DNA of 64,000 nt from an uncultured Sphingomonadales bacterium. GTDB lineage: Bacteria; Pseudomonadota; Alphaproteobacteria; Sphingomonadales; Rhodothalassiaceae. The notes below the pieces were generated by a model. It made no database searches. It saw nothing but the letters and a program-made list of their open reading frames with translations, and had not been told where the DNA came from. Location of the stretch: NCBI GenBank assembly GCA_947499155.1, contig CANMND010000002.1, forward strand, positions 186,001-250,000. The letters run 5' to 3'. Position 1 is the first letter of the stretch. Every line of letters begins with the position of its first letter. This document shows, one piece after another, positions 57,492 to 61,146 of this stretch. The position numbers and the translations under genes are program-made.

Positions 57492-57887
57492 ATGGCGTTG
57501 AAACTATCGTTGAAACCTGGCGAAAAATTTGTAGTCAACGGTGCGGTTATCTCTAATGGAGATCGCCGTTCAAGTCTTGTGATCCAGAACAAGGTATCTA
57601 TCCTGCGCGAAAAAGACATTATGCGACAAGAAGATGCAACAACGCCGGTCAGGCGCATCTATTTTCCTATAATGCTGTGTTACCTGGATCCGGATAATCG
57701 CTCGAAATACATCGAGGAATTCATGATCCGGATGAGCGAATTTATGAGCATTATTGAGGATCCTGAGGCCAAAGCGCGCTCGATTGAAATCAGCACCGAT
57801 GTAATGAATCAGAATTACTATCGCGCACTTATGACCTGTAAAAAGCTGTTCGCTTTTGAAAAGGAAAGGCTGGATCATGTCCCTTAA
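57492..57887 (+). CDS. flbT: Flagellin synthesis post-transcriptional regulator FlbT
   Basis: The 131-residue protein matches FlbT (MALKLSLKPGEKFVVNGAVI, IYFPIMLCYLD, ALMTCKKLFAFEKE). In Caulobacter FlbT binds the 5' untranslated region of flagellin mRNA and promotes its decay when flagellum assembly is incomplete. GAGGAG lies before the start. It overlaps flaF by 11 bp. The flagellin gene downstream has two strong hairpins in its leader, a plausible FlbT target. Confidence 0.92.
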   Translation: MALKLSLKPGEKFVVNGAVISNGDRRSSLVIQNKVSILREKDIMRQEDATTPVRRIYFPIMLCYLDPDNRSKYIEEFMIRMSEFMSIIEDPEAKARSIEISTDVMNQNYYRALMTCKKLFAFEKERLDHVP

Positions 57888-58290
57888 TGCCTATCATCAA
57901 CGCCAGATGGACGCGGAATCCCCGCGTGAGACAGAATATCGCTTGTTTGGACGGGTAACAGGTGCGTTGATCGAGGCAAGTGAAAAGGCGTTGACCGGTG
58001 CAGCTCTTATGAAGTCGCTGGACTGGAATCGGCGTCTATGGTCAACCCTGGCTCTTGATTGTTCAACCAATGAAAATCAGTTGCCGCCTGCGACGCGGGC
58101 ACAAATCATATCACTGTCAATTTATGTTTCCAAAACCACCAGTAAAGTGGTGAGGGGACAGGCATCCATTGATGATCTGATCAGTTTAAACAAAATCATC
58201 ATGGAAGGGCTGGCAGCCCAGGAAAAGCAGGCGAAAGATGCTTTAGATAATAAAGGCCCGCAGCTTCCTCTTGGCGGGATGGTTGGTTAA
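57877..58290 (+). CDS. flaF: Flagellin synthesis regulator FlaF
   Basis: The 137-residue protein follows flbT with an 11-bp overlap. It has the FlaF pattern: SPRETEYRLFGRVTGALIEA, WSTLALDCS and ISLSIYVSKTTSKV. FlaF acts opposite to FlbT and is required for flagellin production in Caulobacter. Start ATG 57877 lies 6 bp after AAAGG at the end of flbT. Confidence 0.9.
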   Translation: MSLNAYHQRQMDAESPRETEYRLFGRVTGALIEASEKALTGAALMKSLDWNRRLWSTLALDCSTNENQLPPATRAQIISLSIYVSKTTSKVVRGQASIDDLISLNKIIMEGLAAQEKQAKDALDNKGPQLPLGGMVG

Positions 58291-58409: not shown

Positions 58410-58517
58410 ATACGGCAATATTTTCCGGGCTGATGTGGAAAAGCCTTTACATGTCTTGATCTAAATTATCGTCTTAATTACAATAGGTTATATGTTTTGT
58501 TCGGCCATAAGGGCGAA

Positions 58518-58533
58518 TGGCACAGGCTTTGCA
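58518..58533 (+). promoter_or_regulatory. Sigma-54 promoter for flagellin 1
   Basis: TGGCACA-GGCT-TTGCA differs from the consensus in one base. Transcription should begin near 58544, giving a leader of about 60 nt. Confidence 0.88.
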
Positions 58534-58545
58534 TCGGTAGTGGTG

Positions 58546-58577
58546 CGAGACAAAACGTCTCGGGAGCAAAATGCTCC
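58546..58577 (+). promoter_or_regulatory. Two tandem hairpins at the 5' end of flagellin-1 mRNA
   Basis: CGAGAC-AAAAC-GTCTCG (58546-58562) and GGAGCA-AAA-TGCTCC (58563-58577) abut without a gap. They begin within a few bases of the predicted start of transcription. AGGAGAG, the ribosome site, follows at 58592-58598. Confidence 0.75.
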
Positions 58578-58604
58578 ATGAAAACCTAGAACAGGAGAGC
58601 CAAA

Positions 58605-59414
58605 ATGGCCTTTTCAGTGAATACCAATCAGGGTGCATTCATCGCCCTTCAAAGCCTTAATCAGACAAATCGTGGCCTTGCCCAGACCCAGAATCGGATT
58701 AACACCGGTTTGGCAGTTTCCGGTGCGGCAGACGGTGCGTCGACCTTTGCTATTGCCCAAGGCCTTCGCGCTGATGTGGGCGGCCTGAATGCGGTTCAAG
58801 GATCGCTTGACCGGTCGATTTCCGCTGTGGACGTGGCCTTGAATGCCTCAGAGTCTATTTCTGCTCTTTTGATTGACCTGCGCGAAACGGCAACGTCTGC
58901 CGCTGACCCTGGTCTGGATGCAGGCAGCCGTACGGCTCTCGAAGACGAATTCAAGCAGGTTTTGAATCAGATCGATTCGATCATTGCCAGTGCCGAGTTT
59001 AACGGCACAAACATGATCAGCTCTGCTGCAACCTCGGTTGTTGCTATCGATGGCAGCGGTAACACTGTGTTCAGTGTTTCTGGCAGCGATCTAAGCGGCA
59101 TGACTGCAACAATCCAAAGCACTTTTGCATCAGCAGCTTCGGCAGCATCAACAGTTGCTCGCATTGAGACTGCAGCCACGAGTCTGAACGGTCTTCTGTC
59201 CAACCTCGGTGCAGGTCAGAATCGTTTGGAACTGCAAAGTGAATTCACTTCTACACTTCGTGATACACTTGAAGTTGGCATTGGTAACCTTGTCGATGCT
59301 GACCTTGCTCGTGAATCTGCAAATCTGCAGGCGTTGCAGGTGAGGCAGCAATTGGGACTGCAAGCACTCGGCATTGCTAACCAGGCACCTGGAGCGATCC
59401 TGTCGCTCTTCTAA
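58605..59414 (+). CDS. Flagellin 1
   Basis: Flagellar filament protein of 269 residues, exported by the flagellar type III system (no signal peptide). N-terminal D0/D1 helices (MAFSVNTNQGAFIALQSL, AQTQNRINTGLAVSGAADGA) and the C-terminal counterpart (VDADLARESANLQALQVRQQ) are conserved. Only a short variable centre (about 140-190) is present, as usual for alphaproteobacterial flagellins. It is clearly related to flagellin 2 (60319-61146). Expression: sigma-54 promoter, ftr-like sites and a structured leader. Confidence 0.95.
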   Translation: MAFSVNTNQGAFIALQSLNQTNRGLAQTQNRINTGLAVSGAADGASTFAIAQGLRADVGGLNAVQGSLDRSISAVDVALNASESISALLIDLRETATSAADPGLDAGSRTALEDEFKQVLNQIDSIIASAEFNGTNMISSAATSVVAIDGSGNTVFSVSGSDLSGMTATIQSTFASAASAASTVARIETAATSLNGLLSNLGAGQNRLELQSEFTSTLRDTLEVGIGNLVDADLARESANLQALQVRQQLGLQALGIANQAPGAILSLF

Positions 59415-59559: not shown

Positions 59560-59997
59560 ATGGCAGAGATTGGAAGAATTCAATCGGGACTTGTCCCTAT
59601 ACGAGAGAATAGAAATACCGGTGATGTATCATCGCGCGTCGTTGAGCCCGTTCGTGCTATTAATGCTGATAAAAGCGGGGACTCTGGCCGCAATGTGCAA
59701 AAGTCATTGAGTGACAGAATCAGGACTATTCGTTCTGAACAATTTTCAGACCATCAACCGAGCCCGCGAGACCAAGCAGAAGACTTCATCAATGATTTGC
59801 TCAGCAATCTGATCACAAACGCAACAGATAATCGTCGATTGCGTATTGAAGAGGATGAGGCAAGCGGGTTATTTGTATACCAATTCGTGGATAAAACTTC
59901 AGGGGAAGTGGTGCGACAGTTTCCGGCTGAAGAGATTCTCAAATTGATAACCCGTATTCGCAAGGCAGAAGGGATCGTACTCGACGAAAGTATCTGA
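59560..59997 (+). CDS. flaG: FlaG family protein
   Basis: The 145-residue protein has a low-complexity N-terminus and a C-terminal FlaG core: RLRIEEDEASGLFVYQFVDKTSGEVVRQFPAEE read in two parts, LRIEEDEASGLFVYQF and DKTSGEVVRQFPAEEIL. FlaG influences filament length and flagellin assembly in other bacteria. AGGGGAG precedes ATG 59560. No sigma-54 promoter lies directly before it, so it is probably read from the flagellin-1 promoter. A strong terminator follows. Confidence 0.85.
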   Translation: MAEIGRIQSGLVPIRENRNTGDVSSRVVEPVRAINADKSGDSGRNVQKSLSDRIRTIRSEQFSDHQPSPRDQAEDFINDLLSNLITNATDNRRLRIEEDEASGLFVYQFVDKTSGEVVRQFPAEEILKLITRIRKAEGIVLDESI

Positions 59998-60318: not shown

Positions 60319-61146
60319 ATGGCATTCTCGGTAAATACAAATGCAGGTGCATTGAGTGCTCTGCAACAATTGGTAAGAACCAATGCCGGCCTCTCGGAAA
60401 CCCAGGAGCGGGTTAATACAGGTCTCGAAATCCGCAGTGCAAAAGACAATGCTGCCGTCTTTGCAATTGCGCAAAATCTGCGCGCTGACTTTGAAGGCTA
60501 TAATGCCGTTCGTCAAAGTCTTGACCGTTCGATCAGTGCAACAGATGTGGCTTTGGCGGCATCGGAAGCAATTAGCGATCTGTTGTTGCAGCTAAAAGAG
60601 CGCGCCGTCGCTGCGGCTGATGCGGGATTAGGCCCCGAAAGCCGCTCTGCTCTCAAACAGGATTTTGAAGAAATACGCGACCAGATCAGCACCATTATCA
60701 GCAATGCTTCTTTTAACGGCACCAATCTTGTTGATGGTGGCACGGATCAGGTCGTGGGTATCACCACACCTGACGCTGTTGGTAACATCACCATAGGTCA
60801 TGAAAATATGTCGCCCGGCGGCACAGTGGTAATTTTTGGTCCAGCATCCAGCTTCTCCTCAGCTGTTGATGCTCAGGCTATGGTGACAGCGATTGATGCA
60901 TCCATCAAAAACCTGTCCGCCTCTCAGACCCGTCTTGGTTCCGGAGCCAAGGCTCTGGAAACGCAGCGTACTTTCACTGACGTAATTCAAGATACCTTGC
61001 AAGTTGGTATTGGTAATCTTGTTGACGCAGACCTCGCCCGTGAATCAGCGAACTTGCAGGCATTGCAGGTAAAACAGCAGCTTGGGCTTCAGGCACTGAG
61101 TATTGCCAATGGCCAGCCGCAATCGATTTTGTCACTGTTTGGGTAA
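60319..61146 (+). CDS. Flagellin 2
   Basis: Second filament protein, 275 residues, with the same architecture as flagellin 1: MAFSVNTNAGALSALQQL, SETQERVNTGLEIRSAKDNA and C-terminal VDADLARESANLQALQVKQQ. The centre (about 135-185, VVGITTPDAVGNITIGHENM) differs in sequence. AGGAG precedes the start. Leader shows only weak hairpins (CGCC/GGCG, AGCTT/AAGCT), unlike flagellin 1. Differential regulation is therefore plausible. Confidence 0.95.
   Translation: MAFSVNTNAGALSALQQLVRTNAGLSETQERVNTGLEIRSAKDNAAVFAIAQNLRADFEGYNAVRQSLDRSISATDVALAASEAISDLLLQLKERAVAAADAGLGPESRSALKQDFEEIRDQISTIISNASFNGTNLVDGGTDQVVGITTPDAVGNITIGHENMSPGGTVVIFGPASSFSSAVDAQAMVTAIDASIKNLSASQTRLGSGAKALETQRTFTDVIQDTLQVGIGNLVDADLARESANLQALQVKQQLGLQALSIANGQPQSILSLFG

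Follow-up and report, generated by a model that had tools for sequence, protein, structure and literature searches.

The leader of flagellin 1 in the window, the whole analysed stretch of 64 kb, contains a real and conserved RNA element with two abutting hairpins that share the loop C-AAAAN-G. The element is almost certainly regulatory, and the leader belongs with the flagellin leaders of Caulobacter. It is probably a cis-regulatory RNA of the Caulobacter fljK kind, through which FlbT, the proposed binder, would repress or destabilise flagellin mRNA. The explicit definition of loop and stem, the breadth within the Alphaproteobacteria and the lack of a matching Rfam family appear to be new. A literature search, with thin coverage of subscription papers, found no description of the C-AAAAN-G loop motif; an earlier description for Caulobacter fljK is possible.

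The leader of flagellin 1

Flagellin 1 is located directly downstream of flbT and flaF (Table 1); the Pfam assignments bear out the upstream flbT that an earlier note on this DNA had named. A FlaG-family gene (59560–59997) lies between flagellins 1 and 2. The predicted transcription start, 58544, was counted 12 nt from the GC of the sigma-54 site, and hairpin 1 would thus start 2 nt into the transcript. By this count, the element is part of the 5′ UTR of a flagellin gene of the sigma-54 type, with a predicted 5′ end. Sigma-54-like sites are also present upstream of the element in most relatives.

Table 1. Features of the flagellin-1 region (positions in the window)
Feature	Position	Strand	Evidence
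flbT, proposed leader binder	57492–57887	+	PF07378, E 4.6e-45
flaF	57877–58290	+	PF07309, E 8.7e-30
Sigma-54-type promoter TGGCACAGGCTTTGCA	58518–58533	+	Sequence; predicted start 58544
Hairpin 1, CGAGAC-AAAAC-GTCTCG, loop C-AAAAN-G	58546–58562	+	RNAfold, order-wide consensus, covariation
Hairpin 2, GGAGC-AAAAT-GCTCC, loop C-AAAAN-G	58563–58577	+	RNAfold, order-wide consensus, covariation
Hairpin 3 (weak), CCT-AGAAC-AGG, 3′ arm overlaps the Shine–Dalgarno sequence	58585–58595	+	Helix 3, order-wide consensus
Shine–Dalgarno sequence AGGAG	58593–58597	+	Predicted ~80% paired
Possible hairpin 4, GCC-AAAAT-GGC, around the start codon	58599–58609	+	Kept in leaders of the window's family
Flagellin 1	58605–59414	+	Pfam Flagellin_N and Flagellin_C
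Flagellin 2, without the element	60319–61146	+	Pfam; covariance-model search of the genome

Read from 58544, the leader consists of TG, hairpin 1, hairpin 2 without any spacer, ATGAAAA, hairpin 3 and AGAGCCAAA before the ATG. Both abutting hairpins, which the earlier note had placed at the predicted 5′ end, were returned by RNAfold (58544–58640) with z = −3.1, and none of 200 shuffles was equally stable. An alternative pairing of hairpin 2 has a 6-bp stem and an AAA triloop. The window has one pair of perfect hairpins (at least 6 bp) that abut, with 0.14 expected, and 13 of 100 simulations of 64 kb had at least one such tandem pair. By raw chance such a pair is no more than mildly unusual in a stretch of this length, so its place and the comparative data have to decide. 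Directly 3′ of hairpin 2, a mini-ORF (ATG AAA ACC TAG, 58578–58589) is absent in congeners and probably due to chance.

Conservation and covariation

Flagellin orthologues were searched in 61 genomes, mostly of the same order. Their leaders keep the layout with different stem letters. Blind RNAalifold on a MAFFT alignment of 25 leaders of the order gave three hairpins, the third including the Shine–Dalgarno sequence, and compensatory changes on both sides were present in 9 of 11 pairs. The structure described here has 89.6% of cells paired in comparison to 23%–50% in slid versions, and no shuffle reached it. Among 103 distinct leaders, two-sided changes occur at all 12 modelled pairs and 91.4% of cells pair, in an alignment that was fitted to the covariance model; the less dependent support is therefore the pairing count of the 25 leaders together with an arm-permutation test. 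This test needs no alignment: the arms that flank C-AAAAN-G have a pairing of 78%, and permutation of arms between hairpins lowers it to 40%, with a maximum of 50%. The hairpins hold up in relatives, with stems that covary and are conserved across the order.

The hallmark is the loop C-AAAAN-G in both hairpins with variable stem letters. The AAAA columns are 92%–100% identical, the stem columns down to 48%. Within the window's family, stems include CGAGAC/GTCTCG, CGAGGC/GCCTCG, GAAGC/GCTTC and CGGGC/GCCCG around a constant AAAA. A fixed loop on freely varying stems indicates an RNA hairpin that is recognised via its loop.

The ribosome site

The leader had been described as a minimal two-stem structure with a single-stranded ribosome site. 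Neither part is supported by the data. Across the order, a third hairpin belongs to the element. It lies at the ribosome site, takes the Shine–Dalgarno sequence into its 3′ arm and leaves the single-stranded state unsupported. In the window, hairpin 3 has 3 bp only, and the predicted partners of AGGAG are mainly the first codons of flagellin 1. Around the start codon, the possible hairpin 4 is a fourth C-AAAAT-G loop; its case is weakened because a coding constraint acts on codon 2.

Distribution and the link to flbT

Covariance model R1 has one match in the window's own genome, at flagellin 1, and R2 concurs. This single match bears out that flagellin 2 lacks the element. A separate sigma-54-like site and an unlike leader precede flagellin 2. 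Thus, the presence of the element at flagellin 1 only gives a reason why neighbouring flagellin genes may differ in control. The second flagellins of two congeners (L309 and L310) likewise have sigma-54-like sites of their own and a different leader, which is common to both and has GATTGCAGGA but no tandem hairpins.

Of the 251 genomes of the order, 78 had an R1 match. The order divides into 69 genomes with flbT and the element, 9 with the element only, 7 with flbT only and 166 with neither (Fisher 4e-43, related genomes not being independent and the co-occurrence being confounded by possession of flagella). Element-only genomes have mostly weak matches, and in G054, flbT-only by the model, the element is visible on inspection. 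Among the 54 flagellin-positive genomes of the orthologue search, 41 of 43 with flbT have the element and none of the 11 without flbT, which form one clade. The window's genome itself has flbT.

In the class, 30 of 31 matches at E ≤ 1e-4 fall in flbT genomes. Strong matches are mostly in flagellin leaders behind sigma-54-like sites, in many alphaproteobacterial families. Some AT-rich or weak matches outside such leaders (e.g., L077, L081, L084 and L261) look like chance. About 104 of the 134 flbT genomes of the class have no strong model match, several of them with look-alike leaders by eye. By eye, flagellin leaders in flbT-positive genomes without a model match often have CC-AGAA-GG at the Shine–Dalgarno sequence and one hairpin with an ARAA loop. 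At L065 (just upstream of and within 1501–1564), three C-AAAAT-G loops stand in tandem upstream of the ribosome site of a flagellin leader. Two genomes of a different family (L074:1501–2533 and L079, reverse strand) have the element behind a sigma-54-like site at the head of an operon, followed by an 81-aa ORF, flbT and flaF. This arrangement suggests feedback and a possible autoregulation of FlbT.

Comparison with Caulobacter

In Caulobacter vibrioides and relatives, flagellin leaders have GTGGGC-AAAAT-GCCCAC followed by CCGACaGTC-AAAAT-GACgTCGG. These tandem hairpins with C-AAAAN-G loops are shared with the window, the stems covary, and in Caulobacter, too, flbT and flaF are in the genome. 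At E ≤ 1, R1, which was built without Caulobacteraceae leaders, matches all 21 loci tested from this family (best 3e-8, some scores weak). Blind folding of 22 Caulobacteraceae leaders recovered the two tandem hairpins and not the third; helix 3 is missing from their consensus and stands out better in the order of the window. The window has one short stem in hairpin 2, where the Caulobacter stem is longer and interrupted.

In Caulobacter crescentus, fljK is likewise a sigma-54 flagellin gene, and FlbT acts on its 5′ UTR according to the accounts of Anderson and Gober (2000) in PMC4347634 and PMC3930126. According to reviews, FlbT of Caulobacter attaches to the 5′ UTR of flagellin mRNA, where it promotes decay or acts as a translational repressor (PMC4347634; PMC3930126). 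The 2015 review treats the mode of action of FlbT as an open question, gives no recognition motif and presents Brucella FlbT as a proposed activator, not a repressor (PMC4347634). The flagellin FljJ is described as acting as a co-repressor up to its export (PMC7591256). Flagellin 2 was considered as an FljJ-like co-repressor and not adopted; in Caulobacter, the element is present at flagellins of several kinds.

Proposed function and alternatives

Because the element occurs in many Alphaproteobacteria including Caulobacter, where FlbT is reported to act on the leader, the leader is most likely a switch that holds back flagellin. After transcription by sigma-54, the first ~60 nt fold into the two abutting C-AAAAN-G hairpins and a weak third one with the Shine–Dalgarno sequence. 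The repeated loops are most likely recognised by FlbT, encoded just upstream. By binding hairpins 1 and 2, which are stable, FlbT, either dimeric or together with a flagellin co-repressor, would also come to engage the weaker hairpin of similar form that overlaps the ribosome site. Occlusion of the ribosome site would block initiation and favour decay. This repression would last until the hook-basal body is complete and flagellin is exported, as an assembly checkpoint. Flagellin 2 would escape the FlbT control of the leader. The structure, its conservation and covariation, its position in the leader and its co-occurrence with flbT are observed, and we infer FlbT as the binder, loop recognition, stoichiometry, occlusion of the ribosome site and the outcome. 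The earlier proposal of an FlbT-responsive element is strengthened by covariation, the conserved loop, flbT co-occurrence, the likeness to Caulobacter and the copies ahead of flbT and flaF; FlbT binding remains its conditional part, and its two-stem minimality was given up.

The same hairpins could act as a stabiliser, hindering RNA pyrophosphohydrolase and RNase E at the 5′ end and yielding a long-lived mRNA with no dedicated protein. Two stable stems, one of them starting ~2 nt into the predicted transcript, suit such a role. It requires no particular loop, yet AAAA is conserved while the stem letters vary, a loop of this type is found again at the ribosome site and the presence of the element tracks flbT. 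The conserved loop letters make a pure 5′ stabiliser, the alternative raised in the earlier note, quite unlikely. Inverted repeats just downstream of a promoter may also be operators for a transcription factor at the DNA level or part of a transcription attenuator. Operators are at odds with arm letters that vary freely while pairing is kept and with an asymmetric conserved loop, and no terminator-like site, that is, a G+C-rich hairpin followed by a U run, was found at the leader; this explanation is very improbable. Functionless chance hairpins would fit the mildly unusual count of one tandem pair in 64 kb and are contradicted by conservation and covariation across order and class, which leaves them a negligible probability.

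It is unlikely that the loops are read not by FlbT but by another factor, e.g., FlaF, a flagellin, another RNA-binding protein or an RNase. This alternative gains from the indirect case for FlbT contact and from flaF, which is always likely to accompany flbT. Published work assigns leader binding to FlbT (PMC4347634; PMC3930126), and CsrA does not suit the leader either. In Bacillus and Campylobacter, CsrA/FliW control flagellin mRNA (PMC4894983), a post-transcriptional flagellin checkpoint that works via hairpins at the ribosome site like the one proposed here. In contrast, csrA was not found in the window's genome, the loops AAAAC and AAAAT lack GGA, and homology of FlbT and CsrA is unsupported.

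Other known RNAs differ from the leader. For targets of ANTAR proteins, hexanucleotide loops (A1 and G4) are generally known, as is overlap with a terminator; the leader has AAAAN loops and no terminator. ANTAR target RNA with tandem stem-loops (mentioned in PMC4347634) shares with the leader two adjacent stem-loops near the mRNA 5′ end. An Rfam search of the window and 19 related loci gave no family at or above the gathering score, including flg-Rhizobiales (RF01736), which carries a flagellar name and is a putative cis-regulatory RNA of Alphaproteobacteria (PMC2864571). The repetition of one loop on covarying stems, in many families and with no Rfam family, amounts to a concrete hypothesis for the FlbT binding site, and with the loop definition whole genomes can be searched for FlbT targets. 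A wider reading, which we hold tentatively and at somewhat less than even probability, is that the leader belongs to a class-wide family of RNAs, so far undescribed. FlbT would read a C-A(A/G)AAN-G loop that is repeated in these RNAs, with copies also at the Shine–Dalgarno sequence and perhaps at the start codon. On this reading, FlbT would play the part in Alphaproteobacteria that the CsrA/FliW checkpoint plays elsewhere, and it would be autoregulated in some lineages.

The FlbT protein

The AlphaFold model of FlbT (pLDDT 88) has five short strands (2–7, 12–15, 18–21, 27–32 and 37–39) and four helices. The N-terminal strand spacing, which we take to be much like that of CsrA, and similar-looking motifs prompted the idea of a CsrA-like origin. 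Significant support was obtained neither by hhalign (P 0.09–0.16) nor by Pfam (no CsrA match of FlbT) nor by Foldseek (no match of the model at E ≤ 0.001). The helical part had a weak FliS-like Foldseek match (TM 0.51 by target, E ~4), which is a lead only. CsrA itself was found in 1 of 16 alphaproteobacterial genomes sampled, in comparison to 41 of 44 others of the phylum.
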